Assembly: GCA_015490175.1 (NCBI GenBank)
Contig: WFYJ01000055.1
Location: 1-33,921 of the forward strand
Source: Saprospiraceae bacterium
GTDB taxonomy: Bacteria > Bacteroidota > Bacteroidia > Chitinophagales > Saprospiraceae
Length of the DNA stretch: 33,921 nucleotides
Direction of reading: 5' to 3'
The first letter of the stretch is position 1, and each line of letters begins with the position of its first letter. This document shows positions 3,217 through 26,733 of this stretch, piece by piece. The position numbers and the translations under genes were made by a program. The notes under the pieces are model-generated. The model had not been told where the DNA came from. It made no database searches and saw nothing but the letters and a program-made list of their open reading frames with translations.

Positions 3217-4068
3217 TCATCGCTTTCCGCTCGTGTGCAAGGGGCCTGCCTTTTCGGCAAAATCCGCCCAGGCATCGCCATGGCGGGCATACCAGGACGG
3301 CACCGTGCGCACTGTAAATTCCTTCGGGCTTTCCATCTTGCCGAATGATTCCCACGTCAGGGGCAGCGACACGGTGGCCTCCGGCACGGCTCTCGTACTC
3401 CAGGGCATGACCGCCGACTGGAAGGGGTGGTTGCGCAGGATGTCCACCAGGATGCTGTGCGGTCCGCGCTCGGCCCGCGGATCGAGTGTGTGTCCGGGAA
3501 AGCGTTCCAGAATGGCCTCGCCCACCTCTTTCGCTGCCGCAAACACTTCCTCGGCGGTCCATCGGGGCTCGAGCGGACAATAGATGTGTGCGCCGCGTTT
3601 GCCGGAAGGCTTGACGCAGGTGGCATAGCCAAATGACTCGATGACGGGCCGGATGGCCAGCGCAAAGTCGCGCACCTCCGCGAAGGGCATTCCTTCCGGC
3701 GGATCGAGGTCGAAAACCATATAGCGCACATACTTGAAGTCCGGTGCGCGCAATGGCACCAGGTGAAACTCGATGGCGTCCTGATTGACCCACCACAGGA
3801 TGGTGTCCAGCTCCTCGACGATGGTATAGCGCGCCTTCTTCCACTTCCCGAGATCCACGGCCTTCATCCACTCGGGAGCATATTCGGGCAGGTTTTTCTG
3901 AAAAAAACCCTTTCCGCCGGTACCTTCCGGATAGCGCTTGACAAAGACGACATGCCCTCGGGCAAAACGCAACAGCGGCTCCCGTACCGCCTCGAAAAAG
4001 GCGGCCAGCTCGCCTTTGGTCACCCTGCCGTCCTCGAACAACACCTTGTCCGGATGCGTCAGCTCCAT
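3217..4068 (-). CDS. Stand-alone LigD-type polymerase/primase domain (NHEJ)
   Basis: A 283-residue protein matching only the polymerase domain (PolDom, archaeo-eukaryotic primase superfamily) of bacterial LigD, which adds nucleotides during non-homologous end joining. Visible motifs: catalytic acidic pair in YMVFDLDPPEG (D120, D122), the SGKRGAHIYCPL motif with H161, and the third acidic residue in SILVDILRNHP (D209). These are the metal- and nucleotide-binding positions of the family. The length is typical for a single PolDom, and there is no ligase or phosphoesterase domain. The start is the ATG at 4068, giving MELTHPDKVLF; upstream in-frame codons reach into the divergent promoter region and look non-coding. 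No Ku or ATP-dependent ligase gene is present in the window, so the partners, if any, are elsewhere. Divergently transcribed from the tail-fibre-like gene. Confidence 0.9.
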   Translation of the reverse strand: MELTHPDKVLFEDGRVTKGELAAFFEAVREPLLRFARGHVVFVKRYPEGTGGKGFFQKNLPEYAPEWMKAVDLGKWKKARYTIVEELDTILWWVNQDAIEFHLVPLRAPDFKYVRYMVFDLDPPEGMPFAEVRDFALAIRPVIESFGYATCVKPSGKRGAHIYCPLEPRWTAEEVFAAAKEVGEAILERFPGHTLDPRAERGPHSILVDILRNHPFQSAVMPWSTRAVPEATVSLPLTWESFGKMESPKEFTVRTVPSWYARHGDAWADFAEKAGPLHTSGKR

Positions 4069-4091
4069 TTTGAAAACAGTTCTGCCAAATC

Positions 4092-4122
4092 TTGAATCGC
4101 AGGGCAAAATACCGTACATTTG
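4092..4122 (+). promoter_or_regulatory. Candidate promoter for the tail-fibre/protease unit
   Basis: TTG at 4092-4094 is followed 20 bases later by a perfect TAnnTTTG box, TACATTTG (4115-4122), the usual -33/-7 geometry for Bacteroidota. The predicted start near 4128 would leave a leader of roughly 125 bases before the ATG at 4255. GTACA/TGTAC arms (4114-4129) surround the -7 box. Confidence 0.55.
4105..4111 (-). promoter_or_regulatory. Candidate -7 element for the LigD-like gene
   Basis: On the minus strand this reads TATTTTG, one base shorter than TAnnTTTG, 37 bases upstream of the ATG at 4068. It sits almost back-to-back with the plus-strand box at 4115-4122, so the two genes may share a divergent control region. 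Confidence 0.3.
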
Positions 4123-4254
4123 TCTGTACCCACCGCTATCTGTTCCAATCTTTGCTCTCTTTTCCTTTTTCCCAAACAAAGGACACCCACCAGGCTGGTA
4201 GAGACAAGCCTCCTTTGCTCTTTTTCTATTTTTTCACTAATAAATCCGGAACCT

Positions 4255-8847: not shown

Positions 8848-10182
8848 ATGTCACATCCCCACCCGTCTGACCCATCACAAAATCATTCCATTTTGACATT
8901 CAGAGATTTCGGATTTGCGCCTGCCCTGCTCGAAGGGCTCGATGCCATCGGTTTCGAAACACCCACTCCGGTACAGGAACAGGCCATCCCGCCCATCCTC
9001 GAGGGCAAAGACGTCATTGCCTGCGCACAGACCGGCACCGGCAAAACGGCGGCCTACCTGCTGCCCGTCATCAACCACATCATCGACTCGCCCAACAAAG
9101 GGGTGGACACCCTTGTCATTTGCCCGACGCGCGAGCTGGCCATCCAGGTGGACCAGCAGATCGAGGTGCTGGCCTACTTCACCGGCATCGGCTCCATTGC
9201 AATCTATGGCGGTCGCGACGGTCACAGCATGGAACAGGAGAAGAAGGCCCTCCGGAGCGGGGCCGACATCATCGTCGCCACGCCCGGCCGCCTCAAGGCC
9301 CACATCCAGATGGGCTACGTGGACTTCAGCACGGTGCGCCACTTCATCCTCGACGAAGCCGACCGCATGCTGGACATGGGCTTCGTGGGCGACATCATGC
9401 AGATCATGCACCAGCTTCCGCCAAAAAGGCAAAACCTGCTCTTTTCGGCCACCATGCCGCCCCGCATCCGCAAGTTTGCCCTGGGCTTCATGCACGACCC
9501 TGTCGAGGTCAACATCGCCATTGCCAAGCCGGCCGAAGGCATCGTGCAGTTGGCCTATCTGGTTCAGGACGCGCACAAGAAGCGCCTCATCCTGGAACTG
9601 CTCAAAGGCAAACAGGGCGAAGACAGGCGTATCATCATCTTTGCCGGCACGCGCAAGAACGTGGGCGAACTGGCACGGGCGCTCAAGCAAAAAGGCTTCC
9701 GCGCCGAAGCCGTCTCGAGCGATCTGCCCCAGGAAAAGCGCGAAGAGGTCCTGCTCGACTTCCGCAACCTCAAAACGCCCATCATCGTGGCTACCGACGT
9801 CCTCTCGCGCGGTATCGACATCCAGGGCATTGACCTGGTGATCAACTACGACGTACCCGGCGACGCCGAAGACTACGTGCACCGGATCGGACGCACGGCA
9901 CGTGCCGACGCCACCGGCATGGCCATCACACTGATCGGCCCTTCGAGCTGGCGCAAGTTCGAGCAGATCGAAGCGCTCATGGGCATGGAAGTCAAAAAGC
10001 TCCAGCCGCCCGTAGCCGAATGGGGTTTCGATCCGGCACAGCGCTCCGGCAGGAGCGGCCGGGGTCGCGGTTCGCGCAGTGGCGGTAGGCGATCCAGGCG
10101 CCGCAGCGGCCGCAACCGCACGGGGCAGAACCGCAATCGGGGCCGCACGCGCAAGCACGACCGGCCTCGGGCCAAAGACTGA
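8848..10182 (+). CDS. DEAD-box RNA helicase, RhlE-like
   Basis: 444 residues with the complete DEAD-box set: Q motif around PTPVQEQAIP (39-48), Walker A AQTGTGKT (60-67), PTRELAIQ (93-100), TPGR (145-148), DEAD (169-172), SAT (200-202), RGIDIQG (321-327) and HRIGRTAR (345-352). The last 45 residues are an arginine/glycine/serine-rich basic tail, typical of RhlE/CsdA-type proteins and likely an RNA-binding extension. It acts in ATP-dependent RNA unwinding, for example ribosome assembly or mRNA turnover; which of these applies here is not shown. Monocistronic, ending 23 bases before the convergent PSD-like gene. The symbol rhlE would be reasonable, but paralogues cannot be separated by eye. Confidence 0.93.
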   Translation: MSHPHPSDPSQNHSILTFRDFGFAPALLEGLDAIGFETPTPVQEQAIPPILEGKDVIACAQTGTGKTAAYLLPVINHIIDSPNKGVDTLVICPTRELAIQVDQQIEVLAYFTGIGSIAIYGGRDGHSMEQEKKALRSGADIIVATPGRLKAHIQMGYVDFSTVRHFILDEADRMLDMGFVGDIMQIMHQLPPKRQNLLFSATMPPRIRKFALGFMHDPVEVNIAIAKPAEGIVQLAYLVQDAHKKRLILELLKGKQGEDRRIIIFAGTRKNVGELARALKQKGFRAEAVSSDLPQEKREEVLLDFRNLKTPIIVATDVLSRGIDIQGIDLVINYDVPGDAEDYVHRIGRTARADATGMAITLIGPSSWRKFEQIEALMGMEVKKLQPPVAEWGFDPAQRSGRSGRGRGSRSGGRRSRRRSGRNRTGQNRNRGRTRKHDRPRAKD

Positions 10183-10205
10183 CGGGCGATCGCCGGAACG
10201 CCAGC

Positions 10206-10847
10206 TCAATACCTGGCAATGATCGTTTCGCCATCCACCACCTTCTGCCCCGGCACGACCGCCGGCTGTACATTCATGGGCAAGATCAGGCTCACCTGGC
10301 TGCCCAGCCTGATCAAACCGATCACTTCGCCACGGCGCACCTGCTGGCCCGGCTCCAGGTAGTCTTCGATCCTTCGCGCCAGCAGCCCCGCAATCTGCAC
10401 CACGCTGTAGCGCAGGCTGTCGGCAGTCATGAACAAGAGGGCATTGTGTTCGTTTTCGGGCCGAAATCCGAAGCGGTTGGTATTGCGCAAGGCATTGAGG
10501 AACTTGCCGGGCTGGTAGCGCTCGGCCACGAGCACGGCATCGGCGGGCGCCCGTTGGTAATGCACGTTCGTCACGTCCATGTGAATGGAGACAATCCAGC
10601 CCGAATCGGCCACCTCGCCCGTCAACAGCGCTACCCTGCCCCAACCCTTGTCTATTTCCAGCGAGTCCTGGTACCATTTGGCGACAGCCGAAACGACGCC
10701 ATTGGCCGGGCTGACGAAGATGCCTGCATCCTGAGGGATCGCCCGGTCGGGCTGGCGCAAGAACCACAGCCGGTAATAACCGAACAGGACGAGGGCGAAG
10801 AGCAACACGGCCACCAGGGCCTTTTTTGCGGAAGCGAAAAAGCGCAT
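10206..10847 (-). CDS. Phosphatidylserine decarboxylase-related protein (short type)
   Basis: 213 residues, close to the short archaeal/Bacteroidota-type phosphatidylserine decarboxylase that makes phosphatidylethanolamine. An N-terminal membrane helix (about 8-30) is followed by RQPDRAIP, SPANGVV (46-52), the histidine motif SIHMDVTNVHYQRAP (H89, H96), an EN motif near residue 131, QIAGLLARRI (151-160) and the self-cleavage site LGSQ (G182-S183). Serine 183 would become the pyruvoyl group. Relatives usually have GSR or GST; glutamine after the serine is slightly unusual. The start at 10847 (MRFFASAKKAL) is chosen because the upstream extension is repeat-derived. No phosphatidylserine synthase gene is nearby, so the pathway role rests on family similarity. 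Confidence 0.82.
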   Translation of the reverse strand: MRFFASAKKALVAVLLFALVLFGYYRLWFLRQPDRAIPQDAGIFVSPANGVVSAVAKWYQDSLEIDKGWGRVALLTGEVADSGWIVSIHMDVTNVHYQRAPADAVLVAERYQPGKFLNALRNTNRFGFRPENEHNALLFMTADSLRYSVVQIAGLLARRIEDYLEPGQQVRRGEVIGLIRLGSQVSLILPMNVQPAVVPGQKVVDGETIIARY

Positions 10848-16334: not shown

Positions 16335-16382
16335 GAAAGACGCCGGAAAGTGGGCGTAAAGGGCTTACTCGGGCAGGTGTCG

Positions 16383-16390
16383 TAATTTCG
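16383..16390 (+). promoter_or_regulatory. Possible -7 element for miaA
   Basis: TAATTTCG differs from TAnnTTTG at one base and ends only 4 bases before the miaA ATG at 16395. If real, the transcript would be leaderless or nearly so. The same TAATTTCGCC string precedes the barrel gene at 32875. Confidence 0.3.
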
Positions 16391-16394
16391 CCGC

Positions 16395-17306
16395 ATGGCC
16401 CCGCAAAAAACGCTCCTCGTCATTGGCGGCCCCACGGCTTCCGGAAAGACGGCCCTGGCCATCGCCCTGGCCCGACATTTCGGTACCGAAATCATCTCGG
16501 CCGACAGCCGCCAGATTTACCGGGAAATGACCATTGGCACGGCCAAACCGTCGGCCGAAGAGCTGGCCCTGGCGCCACACCATTTCATCGACACGCATTC
16601 CATCCACGATCACTACAGTGCCGGCCGGTACGAGCGCGAGGCACGTGCCCTGCTCGAACGCCTCTTCCAGCGATACGACCTGCTGATCGCGGCCGGCGGC
16701 TCGGGGCTGTACCTGCGCGCGCTGATGGAAGGGCTCGACGCCTTCCCGGAAATACCGGAAGCCATCGAACGCGAAGTGGAAGCGCTCTACGCCCGCGAGG
16801 GGCTGCCGGCCTTGCAGCGCGCGCTGGCCACCCACGACCCGGACTATTACGAGCAGGTGGACCGCCACAATCCGGCCCGACTGTTGCGCGCCCTGAAGGT
16901 GATCCGCGCGACGGGAAAGCCTTTTTCCGCTTTCCGCAAAAAACGCCCCGCACCCCGCCCCTGGCGCCACCTGCCCGTGTTGCTCATGCCGGATCGGGCA
17001 CTGCTCTACGAGCGCATCAACCGCCGGGCCGACGCCATGATCGAGGCGGGCCTGCTCGACGAAGTGCGCAGGCTCTATCCATGGCGCCACCTGCGCCCCC
17101 TGCAGACGGTGGGCTACCAGGAATTTTTCCCATGGATCGAAGGACAACGGCCGCTCGAGGAAGCCATCCGGCTGTTCAAGCGCAACACGCGACGGTATGC
17201 CAAGCGCCAGATGACGTGGTTCAGGAAGTATTTTCGCGCTGCCTGTTTTCAGCAGCTGACAGTGGATGCAATCATTGCATGGACGGAAAAAAGGATTGCC
17301 GAATGA
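16395..17306 (+). CDS. miaA: tRNA dimethylallyltransferase
   Basis: 303 residues. MiaA transfers a dimethylallyl group from dimethylallyl diphosphate to N6 of adenosine 37 in tRNAs that read codons starting with U. The P-loop GGPTASGKT (11-19) is followed by the family signature IISADSRQIYREMTIGTAKP (34-53) including catalytic D37, then HHFIDTHSIHDHYSAGRY and AGGSGLYLRALMEGLD. Later come the tRNA-contacting NPARLLRALKV and the C-terminal LQTVGYQEFFPW and RNTRRYAKRQMTWFRK. Length and order are normal for the family. The gene ends 31 bases before the convergent regulator-like gene. With queA and two tRNA genes, it makes tRNA function the commonest theme of this window. Confidence 0.97.
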   Translation: MAPQKTLLVIGGPTASGKTALAIALARHFGTEIISADSRQIYREMTIGTAKPSAEELALAPHHFIDTHSIHDHYSAGRYEREARALLERLFQRYDLLIAAGGSGLYLRALMEGLDAFPEIPEAIEREVEALYAREGLPALQRALATHDPDYYEQVDRHNPARLLRALKVIRATGKPFSAFRKKRPAPRPWRHLPVLLMPDRALLYERINRRADAMIEAGLLDEVRRLYPWRHLRPLQTVGYQEFFPWIEGQRPLEEAIRLFKRNTRRYAKRQMTWFRKYFRAACFQQLTVDAIIAWTEKRIAE

Positions 17307-17337
17307 AGCCCCATCTCCCTTTTGTGTGCAGCCCTGT

Positions 17338-19038
17338 CTATTCCGCGGCGTTCTCCCAATGGCGCGGGACATAACGCCCGCGACGGATGCTCCGGCACTG
17401 GTGGCTTAGTATGGTCTGGAGGGATTTCCGATTGACGCCCGGCCGAATCCCGTTGACATACCGGAATACTTCATCCAGCGTCAGTGGTCTGCCATAGTGG
17501 TCAAAAGCACTTTCAACGAGTTCTTTCAAATATCGAGTATCCGTGCCCCAGCTGCGCAAGGCATACTTGCCCGTTTTTCCAAGAAAGACCACCTCCTCTT
17601 CGCCTTTCATCAAAGCCACAAAACCATTCCCGGAAAATTGTTTGTCGGAACCCACTTGTTCCAGACGACGATTGATGATTTGCAGAATCTCCCGATAGTG
17701 GAGCGGTTGGCCGGCCTCGTAGAGCACCCGCCAGGCCATTTTGGCGCAAGAGGGCAAAAGGTCGAATCGCAACTGGACATGCGGGTCGGCCTCCTGTCCG
17801 ACCCGCTCAAAGAGGTGCCCGAAGCTGTCGAGCAATATATCCACGTATTCGGGGCGCGCCTCCGGGCATTCGAGCGCCAGTCGTTGTTTCAATGAGGCCA
17901 CAGAAACGGACACCGGATACGCGCTCAACATATTGATCACGCATCTTGCCGTTTTCAGAAAAAGCGCCATGTCCAGATGAGGATCGAAAATGTAAACATG
18001 CGGTGCAAGCAATGCGAACTTGTATATTGGATATTTCCTCACTCCGTACAGCCTGAAAACGACCTCTATGGCAGCCTGAATTTTTTCTGAAAGGGAATTG
18101 CCCTGAAACCCCGCTACCTCGGCAATGCGGGACGCCGGCACCACTTTCTTTTCCGACCAACTTCCATAGGTGTGTTCCAGTGCAGCGCGGACAGCGTGGC
18201 GGCTCCGATCGTCAAGGAATGACTGTTCATCGTCAAAAATCAGCATTCGCATTTGTTCAAACACCCTCACAAGGATCTGCCGGACGCGCTCTCTGCTCAC
18301 TCCGAGACGTTGGCCTATTTCCAGGTGCCTGAGCTTCCGATCCGTTCCCCAACCGTAATACCAGCGAAAGACCTCATATCCCTTGCTGTCGGAATCCTTG
18401 AGAAATTGGACGAAGGCATCGAGGAAGACGACGAATACTTTAAAGGAAGGTGCGCTTTCACAAACTTCTACCGGGAGAAAACGCGTGCTTTCAGGGGAAG
18501 GTTTGGGCAGGAAAGAATCGGGGTCTGCAAGCAGATCAACCAGAAATCGGGAAAGCAATCTTACAGTTTTGGCGCCAACGTATGGCAGGGAAGCAAACTC
18601 CTGAAGAGAGATTAGGCAAAGGTCATCCAGCGATTCGAAGCGGTGCATTTTCAACTTGGCATACAACAGACCGGGCATCTTCAACGCAATGTCGTCAAAA
18701 CGGATGGTGCGCAATGGCGAATCTTCCGGCAGTGAGAGTATCGGCCGTTGGGGAGTCGTCTTGCGCCAATCCGGGACAGAAGGCAAATCCGGCAGCGGTT
18801 CTCGCTTCAATTGCTGCTGCAGCTCCTTCATCATCTCCACAGCTCTCGATCCTACCCCCGGCAAGTCAGCAAACTCCTCCAGACTGATTTTCAGCACATC
18901 ATCCACATAAAGAATGCCGTTACGGAGCAGCCTGGACCACAACAAGCCCGGTATCTTTTCCCTGAGAAGGGCAATGGGTATGCGCCGGCTCTGAGCCGAA
19001 GATTCCTTTTTCGAATTTTTGTTTTCGAGCAGTTCCAT
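17338..19038 (-). CDS. Unusual regulator-like protein: two alpha-CTD-like repeats, sigma4-like HTH, HARE-HTH-like end
   Basis: 566 residues from the ATG at 19038 (MELLENKNSKK); the open frame continues 21 codons further upstream into repeat DNA. Not recognised as a named family. Two copies of a helix-hairpin-helix fold like the RNA polymerase alpha C-terminal domain lie at about 22-78 (ISLEEFADLPGVGSRAVEMM) and 112-170 (ISLQEFASLPYVGAKTVRLL). Residues about 215-266 look like sigma-70 region 4 (LEIGQRLGVSRERVRQIL). Residues about 430-561 contain two winged-helix-like units, the last (YGRPLTLDEVFRYV...GVNRKSLQTIL) like a HARE-HTH/RpoE-delta domain. The middle (280-430) is helical and unassigned. 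Region 2 of sigma is absent, so it is not a complete sigma factor. Base composition is visibly less GC-rich than flanking genes, hinting at transfer. A transcription-associated DNA-binding role is inferred. Confidence 0.75.
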   Translation of the reverse strand: MELLENKNSKKESSAQSRRIPIALLREKIPGLLWSRLLRNGILYVDDVLKISLEEFADLPGVGSRAVEMMKELQQQLKREPLPDLPSVPDWRKTTPQRPILSLPEDSPLRTIRFDDIALKMPGLLYAKLKMHRFESLDDLCLISLQEFASLPYVGAKTVRLLSRFLVDLLADPDSFLPKPSPESTRFLPVEVCESAPSFKVFVVFLDAFVQFLKDSDSKGYEVFRWYYGWGTDRKLRHLEIGQRLGVSRERVRQILVRVFEQMRMLIFDDEQSFLDDRSRHAVRAALEHTYGSWSEKKVVPASRIAEVAGFQGNSLSEKIQAAIEVVFRLYGVRKYPIYKFALLAPHVYIFDPHLDMALFLKTARCVINMLSAYPVSVSVASLKQRLALECPEARPEYVDILLDSFGHLFERVGQEADPHVQLRFDLLPSCAKMAWRVLYEAGQPLHYREILQIINRRLEQVGSDKQFSGNGFVALMKGEEEVVFLGKTGKYALRSWGTDTRYLKELVESAFDHYGRPLTLDEVFRYVNGIRPGVNRKSLQTILSHQCRSIRRGRYVPRHWENAAE

Positions 19039-19158
19039 CGGAATGAATTCTTTCGCTTGTAAACAGATTGACAACGAAAATGGACGATAGACGACTGACA
19101 ATAGGCAAACTGCGTGATATACTCAAATCAAAGTGGTTTGGTCAGGGTTTGGAGTTCA

Positions 19159-19274
19159 GAGTTTAAAGTTTTTCTTATTGACTACCAGGTTTTTGTCAAA
19201 TCATCGGTTCTTCGGTTCCTCAGTCATTGAAATCGCAGCCTTCGGCCGCAGAAAACGCAGTTTGAAATCAGTTG
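19159..19274 (+). repeat. Left arm of inverted repeat flanking dnaG
   Basis: The arm reads GAGTTTAAAGTTTTTCTT, then a TTGTCAAATCATCGGTTC stretch, TTCGGTTCCTCAG, ATTGAAATCGCAGCCTTC, GGCCGCAG and ACGCAGTTTGAA. The reverse complement of 22140-22264 carries the same string of blocks with scattered differences. The distance between arms is about 2.9 kb, with dnaG between them. Confidence 0.8.
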
Positions 19275-19289
19275 ATCAGGGACACGACC

Positions 19290-19326
19290 CGTCAAAAATC
19301 CCAAACCGAATTGCGTTGCATATACC
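19290..19326 (+). repeat. CCAAACCGAATTGCGTTG-type dispersed module
   Basis: GTCAAAAATCCCAAACCGAA followed by TTGCGTTGCATATA, just beyond the dnaG stop codon. An inverted copy sits at 21935-21968, so this module extends the inverted repeat around dnaG. Further copies occur at 218, 473, 11090 and 32770. Confidence 0.75.
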
Positions 19327-19327
19327 A

Positions 19328-21274
19328 TCACACCACCACCACGCCCAGCGCTCGGGCCAGTTCTATTTTGGCTTTTTGCAGCGCAGCCACCTGTTGAAGC
19401 AGCGTCTGCACCTGTTTTTCTTCTCCCCTTTTCTCAGCCTCGGCCAGTTCGCGCGTTTTCTGCGCCAACAGGCGGATCACCTTGCGCAACTTGAAGTTGA
19501 GCAGGGCCTTTTCGGCATCGGCTACATGGTTTTCTTCGGGGGGTGGTTGGGTCACAAGCGGCATGTGGTGCCGATCCCATCCCGGGCTGTAGTCGTCTTC
19601 GGCAAACAGCAGATCGGCCGCAAAGCGACGCACCTGCTCATCGGGGTGCTGCTGGAGGAAGTATCGGGTATCCAGCGGCTGGCCGGCCTCGTAGCGCGAC
19701 AGCATTTCTTCAATGATCTGCCTGGCCACGGCATCATCCATGAGATCAAGCAGTACCGGTTCGAAATTGGCAAAAATAAAATCGGCCACGGTATCGCCCG
19801 ATTCGGGATCCATCGGCTTGTCGGCGAAGGTGAGCAAGACGCGCACCAGGTCGCGTTCCTGGGTTTCATGGGTTTCTGCTGCCGGTGTCGGCCCCGAGCG
19901 CGTGGGCCGCTTGACCACCTCCGGCCCCGCCTGTGGCGCCGGATCGACTCCCTGTTTCCGGGCTTCCTTGCGCAGGCGTGCCCGGTCGAGGCGGTTGAGT
20001 TCGTAGATGAGCGCCTCCAGGCCCACGTCCATCAACCGGGCGCACTCGCGCAGGTACTGATCGCGTTTGAGCTTGCTGGACTGCGGGATGCGGGCAATGG
20101 TCTCTACCACTTCCCTGACGGCTTTCGTCTTTTCGATGGGGTCGCGCAGGCGATCCTGCACCTGGCTCAGGTGGAACAAGACCAGATCCTTGCTCTCGGC
20201 CCGCACGTACTCCATGAAGCGCTCGCCCCCTTCCTTCTGCACGAATGAATCGGGGTCTTCGCCTTCCGGCAAAACCACCACCCGCACGTTGAGGTCGTAC
20301 TCGAGCAACAAGCCCAGGCCCCGGATGGCTGCCTGTACGCCCGCTGCATCCCCGTCGTAAATCACCCAGACGTCTTCGGTGAGCCGCTTGAGCAAGTGCA
20401 CTTGCCCATCGGTAAGCGAGGTGCCCGACGAGGCCACCACCTGCCGGATGCCTTCCTGGGCCAACGACAGCACGTCGGTGTAGCCTTCCACAAGGATGAC
20501 ATGGCCCTCGCGACGGATGGCGCCGCGCGCCTGGTGGATGCCGTAAAGGATGCGGCTTTTGTGGTAAATCTCCGTCTCAGGCGAGTTGATGTACTTGGGC
20601 GCTTTGGCGTCTTTGCGCAAAATGCGACCCGCAAAGGCGATCACCTTGCCCGACATGTTGTGGATGGGGAACATGACCCGGTCGACGAAAAAGTCGCGAC
20701 CGTTGCGCATCAGTCCCAGCGCTTCGAGGAGCTCCGGATTGTACCCTTTGGCCCTGGCAGCCTGAACCAGGGCATCGCGCTGCCGAGGAGCGTAGCCCAA
20801 CTGGTATTTGCGGATGATTTCTTCCCGGAACCCCCGCTGCCTGAAGTAGCTCAGACCGATGCTCCTGCCCTCATCCGTCTCGTGAAGATTGTGCTCGAAA
20901 AACTCGCGCGCAAAGTCATTGACCAGATACAGACTGTCCAGGCGCTGTTGGCGGGCCCGGGCCTCGTCGTCCCACTCCTCCTCCTCGATTTCGATGCCGT
21001 ACTTGCGCGCCAGGTAGCGCAAGGCTTCCGGATAACTCAGATTTTCGTGCTTCATGACGAAACTGACCGCATCGCCAGCCTCGCCGCAACCAAAGCACTT
21101 GAAAATCCCTTTGGATGGCGAGACGTTGAAGGAAGGCGTTTTCTCGTGGTGGAACGGACACAACCCGATCCAGTTGGCCCCGCGTCGGCGCAGCTTCACG
21201 AAGTCTTCGACCACCTCCTTGATGTCGGCGACTTCCTTGATGCGATTTTCTGTTTCAATTTTTATTCTACTCAT
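19328..21274 (-). CDS. dnaG: DNA primase
   Basis: 648 residues. DnaG makes the RNA primers for the lagging strand and for fork restart, working with the DnaB helicase. The CHC2 zinc finger is clear: C39, H42, C60 and C63 within CPFHHEKTPSF and FKCFGCGEAGD. The catalytic core has RVMFPI (199-204) and FAGRIL. The TOPRIM domain has VILVEGYTDVLSLAQEG (E263) and VIYDGDAAG (D307, D309), the metal-binding residues. Residues after about 440 form a linker and a helical C-terminal DnaB-interaction region ending in a coiled-coil-like segment. The start at 21274 (MSRIKIETENRIKEVADI) matches the family start. A perfect -7 box lies upstream. The gene is alone rather than in the rpsU-dnaG-rpoD arrangement of proteobacteria. 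Confidence 0.97.
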   Translation of the reverse strand: MSRIKIETENRIKEVADIKEVVEDFVKLRRRGANWIGLCPFHHEKTPSFNVSPSKGIFKCFGCGEAGDAVSFVMKHENLSYPEALRYLARKYGIEIEEEEWDDEARARQQRLDSLYLVNDFAREFFEHNLHETDEGRSIGLSYFRQRGFREEIIRKYQLGYAPRQRDALVQAARAKGYNPELLEALGLMRNGRDFFVDRVMFPIHNMSGKVIAFAGRILRKDAKAPKYINSPETEIYHKSRILYGIHQARGAIRREGHVILVEGYTDVLSLAQEGIRQVVASSGTSLTDGQVHLLKRLTEDVWVIYDGDAAGVQAAIRGLGLLLEYDLNVRVVVLPEGEDPDSFVQKEGGERFMEYVRAESKDLVLFHLSQVQDRLRDPIEKTKAVREVVETIARIPQSSKLKRDQYLRECARLMDVGLEALIYELNRLDRARLRKEARKQGVDPAPQAGPEVVKRPTRSGPTPAAETHETQERDLVRVLLTFADKPMDPESGDTVADFIFANFEPVLLDLMDDAVARQIIEEMLSRYEAGQPLDTRYFLQQHPDEQVRRFAADLLFAEDDYSPGWDRHHMPLVTQPPPEENHVADAEKALLNFKLRKVIRLLAQKTRELAEAEKRGEEKQVQTLLQQVAALQKAKIELARALGVVVV

Positions 21275-25736: not shown

Positions 25737-26270
25737 TCAGAGGAACACCGAAGCCTCCTTTCGGATAGCTTTGAGGGCTTTGCTCGTGGCGGGCTCTTCC
25801 ATTTTTTCCCAGAACATGACGAGTGCGTCGGCCAGCACCCGGGAGTCGGCCTTGGGATCCACCTGTTCGGCCACGCCGTTGATGATCTGCTCGACCTCCT
25901 GGCGAGCCAGGCGGACGATTGCCCACAGGTTGTCGGAGACGTACACCTGTTGGCTGACATTGTGCTCGAATTCTTGCTGTATGGCCATGAGGAGTGCAAT
26001 GCGCAAGGCCGCTGCATTGGTGCCCTCTACGCGGATGCGCAGCACCAGGTCGGGAAGCTGGATGCGCTCCATGAGCAGGGCCAGCCGCTCGTAGGCTTGC
26101 AACTTGAGCGGGAGCGTGGTCTTGCGGGCCTGTTGATTGAGCTCCACCTGCTTCAACTGCACCTGCTTCTGAAGAAATTCCTGAATCAGGTACCAGGCTG
26201 TAAAAAACACCACCAGTCCGGGGATGGTGAGCTTCAACAATTCGAGCAAGAAGTCGAGCAATGCAGACAT
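25737..26270 (-). CDS. DUF7935-like single-pass membrane protein
   Basis: 177 residues from the ATG at 26270 (MSALLDFLLELLKLTIPGLV). One N-terminal membrane helix (about 8-28) is followed by a basic, glutamine-rich helix (QVQLKQVELNQQARKTT) and the conserved LPLKLQAYERLALLMERI. A helical cytoplasmic domain ends FWEKMEEPATSKALKAIRKEASVFL (shown here by LKAIRKEASVFL). This pattern matches a short Bacteroidota-specific family that I recall as DUF7935; its function is unknown. It is divergently transcribed from the iscA-type gene, with 112 bases between the starts. CATCTTTG on the minus strand at about 26307-26314 could be a variant -7 box. Whether it is functionally tied to Fe-S assembly is not shown. 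Confidence 0.75.
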   Translation of the reverse strand: MSALLDFLLELLKLTIPGLVVFFTAWYLIQEFLQKQVQLKQVELNQQARKTTLPLKLQAYERLALLMERIQLPDLVLRIRVEGTNAAALRIALLMAIQQEFEHNVSQQVYVSDNLWAIVRLARQEVEQIINGVAEQVDPKADSRVLADALVMFWEKMEEPATSKALKAIRKEASVFL

Positions 26271-26358
26271 AGGAAGTTTGGCTTGAAGGAGACGATGGGG
26301 CTCGGCAAAGATGACAAGTTTGCCGAAAGGCTGATCAACTTCACAGGAACCAGTTTTG

Positions 26359-26366
26359 TATTTTTG
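26359..26366 (+). promoter_or_regulatory. Candidate -7 element for the iscA-type gene
   Basis: TATTTTTG is an exact TAnnTTTG match, 16 bases upstream of the ATG at 26383. No good -33 TTG at the expected spacing. Confidence 0.5.
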
Positions 26367-26382
26367 CAAAAAACCTCTCGCT

Positions 26383-26733
26383 ATGGCTGTAGATATCACC
26401 AAAGAATTGCCTCTGACCATCACACCTTCCGCATTCCGACAACTGATGCAGATCAGGGAAGAACAGGGCATCGGCGAGGAGTACGGCTTGCGCGTGGGCG
26501 TGAAGGGCGGCGGATGTGCGGGCTTTTCCTACTTGCTGGGGTTCGATGTGCAAAAGGAAAACGACGAGGTATTCGAATACCAGGGCCTGAAAGTCTTCAT
26601 CCAGAAGGCGCACATGCTCTATCTGCTGGGCACCCGCATCGACTGGGCCGAAGGACTCAACAATCGCGGGTTCACTTTCGACAATCCCAATGCCAAGGAG
26701 ACCTGCGGTTGCGGCTCCTCTTTTTCCGCCTGA
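26383..26733 (+). CDS. A-type iron-sulfur cluster carrier (IscA/ErpA/SufA family)
   Basis: 116 residues, the usual length. It carries the three conserved cysteines of A-type carriers: C45 in GVKGGGCAGFSY and C108/C110 in ETCGCGSSF, which bind an Fe-S cluster or iron at the dimer interface. ITPSAFRQLMQI at the N-terminus matches the family's ITxxAxxxL pattern. It delivers assembled clusters to apo-proteins. Which subfamily (IscA, SufA or ErpA) cannot be decided by eye, and no suf or isc operon surrounds it. Start at 26383 (MAVDITKELPLTI) follows a perfect -7 box; the upstream in-frame ATG at 26356 lies before that box. Confidence 0.93.
   Translation: MAVDITKELPLTITPSAFRQLMQIREEQGIGEEYGLRVGVKGGGCAGFSYLLGFDVQKENDEVFEYQGLKVFIQKAHMLYLLGTRIDWAEGLNNRGFTFDNPNAKETCGCGSSFSA

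Follow-up and report, generated by a model that had tools for sequence, protein, structure and literature searches.

An alpha-CTD/sigma4/HARE-like protein between dnaG and miaA in a Saprospiraceae bacterium, with relatives predicted to be coupled to HEPN-type domains

A single gene in a 33,921-nucleotide stretch of Saprospiraceae DNA (contig WFYJ01000055.1; the whole stretch analyzed is called the window here) encodes a protein in which parts resembling RNA polymerase alpha, sigma and delta domains are joined in one polypeptide. This raises the question of whether such a protein acts on transcription itself or, as the initial annotation also suggested, serves as a regulator associated with defence or mobile elements. 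The protein, P0001, comprises 566 aa counted from an ATG, and its open frame runs further upstream to a TTG at 19101. Its parts are as follows.

17338–19038, minus strand: P0001, a 566-aa alpha-CTD/alpha-CTD/sigma4/middle/HARE-like/wHTH protein (ORF, Pfam, AlphaFold models and fold comparison)
18799–18981, minus strand: alpha-CTD-like repeat 1, residues 20–80 (HHH_5, RNA polymerase alpha profile match, alpha-CTD fold)
18523–18717, minus strand: alpha-CTD-like repeat 2, residues 108–172 (repeat alignment against shuffles; aligned in four of four relatives)
18235–18450, minus strand: sigma-70 region 4 module, residues 197–268 (Sigma70_r4, sigma4 fold, residue map)
18274–18300, minus strand: recognition helix VSRERVRQI, residues 247–255, aligned with the -35-reading residues of sigma70
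17764–18231, minus strand: middle region, residues 270–425, with no Pfam match and mostly low pLDDT
17542–17757, minus strand: HARE-like winged helix, residues 428–499 (HARE-HTH below cut-off; RNA polymerase delta among the fold matches)
17353–17541, minus strand: second winged helix, residues 500–562 (matches to I73R at Z 9.6 and to Fur-type wHTH domains)

The two N-terminal modules had been read as internal alpha-CTD repeats at residues 22–78 and 112–170, and they are indeed homologous to each other, their local alignment scoring 96 against a maximum of 48 among 2000 shuffles. HHH_5 (Pfam) matches residues 36–71 at 27.1 bits (cut-off 27), and RNA_pol_A_CTD reaches only 11.5 bits in P0001 and 26.8 bits, above its cut-off, in a homolog from another Saprospiraceae genome (G016). 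A profile made of five repeats taken from three proteins matched RNA polymerase alpha chains in the PDB (whole-chain E=2.5e-5; best single domain i-E 0.0097), so the evidence favors an alpha-CTD-like assignment over a generic helix-hairpin-helix. Consistent with this, the AlphaFold model of residues 19–78 aligns with the alpha-CTD 7vpd_S at Z 8.9 (57 residues aligned, 1.8 Å). The position aligned with Arg265 is Leu in both repeats (Leu32 and Leu124), such that the residue for UP-element DNA is absent; the residue numbers used for it and for sigma70 below are those of the E. coli proteins.

A sigma region 4 had been proposed at residues 215–266, and Sigma70_r4 (Pfam) matches residues 222–264 with E=2.1e-9 (37.2 bits, cut-off 24.1), while the AlphaFold model over residues 196–332 matches SigA region 4 (8cyf_B) at Z 10.8 (87 of 89 residues aligned, 2.1 Å). 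The matched chain is a sigma4/beta-flap-tip chimera, and a model helix at approximately 318–332, where confidence is low, may sit at the flap-tip position. Like region 4 of sigma-70, P0001 has the HTH fold and the -35-reading residues, but unlike sigma-70 it has no detected region 2: Pfam and NCBIfam models gave no region 2 match, sigma models matching only within residues 202–270, in agreement with the earlier argument that it cannot act as a normal sigma factor. In the residue map derived from alignment, P0001 keeps the residues aligned with R584, E585, R588, and Q589 of sigma70. Given these residues and the Leu at both Arg265 positions, P0001 may read -35-like DNA and probably does not read UP elements in the canonical way.

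The C-terminus had been suggested to be HARE-HTH-like. HARE-HTH (Pfam) reached 21.5 bits at residues 433–459, under the gathering cut-off of 25.9. Fold matches within residues 332–501 of the first model were ignored because that model is poor there, and the C-terminal part was folded separately (mean pLDDT 63.7, with the highest confidence in the last half), giving two winged helices at approximately residues 423–497 and 499–560. The first of these matched RNA polymerase delta (9a6y, 2m4k) at Z 8.4–8.6, level with other winged helices. In its C-terminal half P0001 carries a winged helix that may resemble the HARE domain of the delta subunit (RpoE), but in P0001 this part stands among several DNA-binding domains, and its score is under the Pfam cut-off. 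No enzyme domain was detected in P0001.

How the gene came to its present position is suggested by a genus-mate (G001), in which the following segment is missing.

17307–19327, no strand assigned: approximately 2.0 kb between convergent miaA and dnaG (synteny, sequences and ORF ends in the genus-mate)

There the dnaG and miaA ORFs (655–2598 and 2588–3565 of L037) meet tail to tail with an 11-bp overlap, whereas in the window the stops of the two genes fall at 17306 and 19328 and the P0001 gene lies inside the 2.0 kb between them. Gain versus loss at this junction was judged from the one genus-mate, gain being favored because the family is rare (see below). The gene is also less GC-rich than its neighbors, as had been noted, with a GC content of 52.8% and GC3 of 0.60 compared to 55–64% and 0.66–0.78 for miaA, dnaG, yebC, and dnaA. 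The P0001 gene was probably acquired sideways; scans for terminators, repeats and folded 3' ends found nothing marking a transposon at it. A role as a replacement for rpoD beside dnaG was rejected, since an ordinary sigma-type 289-aa frame is present elsewhere in the genome and in the genus-mate dnaG and miaA have nothing between them. Annotated neighbors in the window are mostly housekeeping genes. Opposite miaA, dnaG, and further genes run long open frames (among them 16365–17372, minus strand, and 19133–20248, plus strand), which probably represent shadow ORFs cast by the GC-rich coding sequence. Elsewhere the window encodes a LigD-type primase-polymerase domain protein (3217–4179, minus strand; LigD_Prim-Pol E=5e-64) and a match to DUF7935, a family of unknown function (25737–26471, minus strand; E=8e-51).

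Relatives of P0001 are few, the counts being lower bounds because the searches score few candidates per genome. Full-length matches were found in at least two of 298 genomes sampled from the window's family (the window genome itself and G016, a Saprospiraceae MAG that was the sole record returned by a genome-contig scan) and in at least one of the 295 genomes of the class sample (the window genome). The phylum sample yielded a 381-aa form in G664, and a sample of 169 genomes from the family of G664 yielded two more relatives of 745 aa each (G1236 and G1217), so that at least three of these 169 genomes carry a relative. The four relatives are only 18–23% identical to P0001 (G016, 23%), and three of them, of 711–745 aa, extend beyond the point at which the P0001 C-terminus ends. 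The G664 relative (7737–8882 of L092, minus strand) has alpha-CTD and sigma4 parts followed by a hydrophobic, possibly membrane-spanning C-terminus that replaces the HARE part. Many further weak matches, mostly to frames of approximately 290–320 aa, covered the sigma4 stretch only, as expected of ordinary sigma factors, and were set aside. No relatives were found in phages, plasmids, or viral contigs with P0001 or the G016 homolog as query, in plasmids or viral contigs with the G1236 homolog, in plasmids with the G664 homolog, or in viral contigs searched with alignments of the P0001, G016, and G1236 proteins. One viral scan whose patterns had been loosened with a synthetic third row was likewise empty and is left out of the evidence.

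The relatives are informative chiefly for what accompanies them. The G016 homolog (10439–12574 of L038, minus strand) is followed on the same strand by a gene for a 205-aa protein (9816–10433, minus strand) that starts 5 bp after its stop, and the same gene pair is seen on L012. In G1236 and G1217, a C-terminal domain fused to the 745-aa relatives aligns with the 205-aa protein at 30–31% identity, and the motifs E-x3-K and R-N-x3-H are invariant among all three. This is the motif pattern of HEPN RNases (PMC3710099). Neither the 205-aa protein nor the fused proteins gave a match to a HEPN-type Pfam family, and HEPN was therefore assigned by motif and context; a PDB profile search with the partner domain likewise matched no HEPN structure. 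On these grounds the relatives in G016, G1236, and G1217 are predicted to be coupled to a HEPN-type RNase. They resemble HEPN RNase conflict systems (PMC3710099) in carrying the two motifs in a fused or adjacent domain, but differ in that no HEPN family profile matched them, and P0001 differs in having no such domain. It also has no adjacent partner gene, and a search of the window genome with a profile of the partner domain, run without a positive control, found nothing.

Defence genes cluster around two of the four relatives. The G016 homolog is flanked on one side by AbiLi/AbiLii and on the other, past a large PKD-domain gene, by Septu PtuA/PtuB. The cluster in G664 comprises an integrase, a NACHT/STAND ATPase, an HNH nuclease, the homolog, a type IIG RM enzyme, a SIR2-like protein, and GmrSD. 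In G1217 an integrase lies upstream and a HATPase-domain protein downstream, and in G1236 genes for DNA polymerase III alpha and a Y-family polymerase are nearby; PADLOC gave no match among the neighbors tested in these two genomes, nor did P0001 match a PADLOC model at E ≤ 0.01. The earlier proposal of a regulator associated with defence or mobile elements thus gains backing from the relatives, through the Septu/AbiL neighborhood, the integrase-bearing defence cluster, and the HEPN-type partner or fusion.

Since relatives are fused to a predicted RNA-cutting domain or have one next to them, and anti-phage genes surround two of the four, P0001 is probably not a sigma factor but a DNA-binding sensor or adaptor from a system of the defence type. 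Our preferred reading, to which we assign a probability of roughly one half, is that P0001 is a non-enzymatic protein with several DNA-binding domains arranged in the alpha-CTD/sigma4/HARE architecture, a module which in its relatives forms the sensing or targeting half of a HEPN-coupled unit. The other half in those relatives would be the HEPN-type ribonuclease domain, supplied as a C-terminal fusion or by the next gene. The helix-hairpin-helix repeats, the sigma4-like helix, and the tandem winged helices would recognize a DNA state, for example promoter-like or modified invader DNA, and pass it on to the effector. With neither a HEPN domain nor an adjacent partner, P0001 would work either as an orphan regulator or adaptor that binds DNA or in the service of a partner whose gene lies elsewhere. 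Against this reading, the P0001 gene stands alone between housekeeping genes, defence context was seen in just two of four relatives, the HEPN call depends on motifs, and the family is only distantly similar to P0001.

An alternative that we regard as rather unlikely is that P0001 is a transcription regulator acting directly on RNA polymerase, activating or blocking promoters in the manner of a partial sigma or anti-sigma factor. Its sigma4-like domain would dock on -35 DNA or the beta flap, and its alpha-CTD-like and HARE-like domains would contact upstream DNA or the polymerase. The intact sigma4 recognition residues, best fold matches to sigma4 and alpha-CTD from polymerase complexes, and the presence of RNA polymerase delta among the matches to the HARE-like domain all favor this idea; however, the Arg265-aligned position is Leu, and in the G016 relative the R584, E585, R588, and Q589 positions hold D, T, E, and Q, so that the first three are lost. 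Reading DNA in the polymerase manner is therefore not constant across the family; from the other three relatives only R584 is missing. Coupling of relatives to a HEPN-type domain also speaks against direct action on polymerase. That the gene is what remains of a decaying defence unit, with the effector and most of the function gone, would fit the missing HEPN part and partner, the solitary position between convergent housekeeping genes, and the shorter C-terminus, but is improbable given the intact 566-codon frame, co-linear with the full-length G016 relative at 23% identity, and the retained sigma4 recognition residues.

The reading of P0001 as a DNA-binding sensor or adaptor can be extended, speculatively and with less likelihood than not, to a family of defence systems whose RNA-polymerase-like modules (alpha-CTD, sigma4, HARE) would detect invader DNA or its transcription and trigger a coupled HEPN ribonuclease, P0001 being an effector-less regulator or sensor. 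A comparable arrangement is found in BREX PglW, a defence protein in which an alpha-CTD-like helical domain precedes several wHTH modules, as in P0001; but PglW additionally contains a kinase and an inactive STAND domain, which P0001 was not found to have, and the description of these PglW modules mentions no sigma4 (PMC12839542).

A literature search found no paper treating HARE-HTH together with a sigma factor and the alpha subunit. Bacterial proteins uniting features of the RNA polymerase alpha subunit and sigma factors with a HARE domain were reportedly described by Aravind and Iyer in 2012. At the level of that description they share with P0001 the same three domain types in one polypeptide, whereas the predicted HEPN coupling, the defence neighborhoods, and the dnaG–miaA insertion site are observations of the present analysis. 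Should the coupling prove real, components of the transcription machinery would have found new use as the sensing half of a defence unit that cuts RNA, and an architecture that, to our knowledge, had previously been described by domain content only would gain a function.
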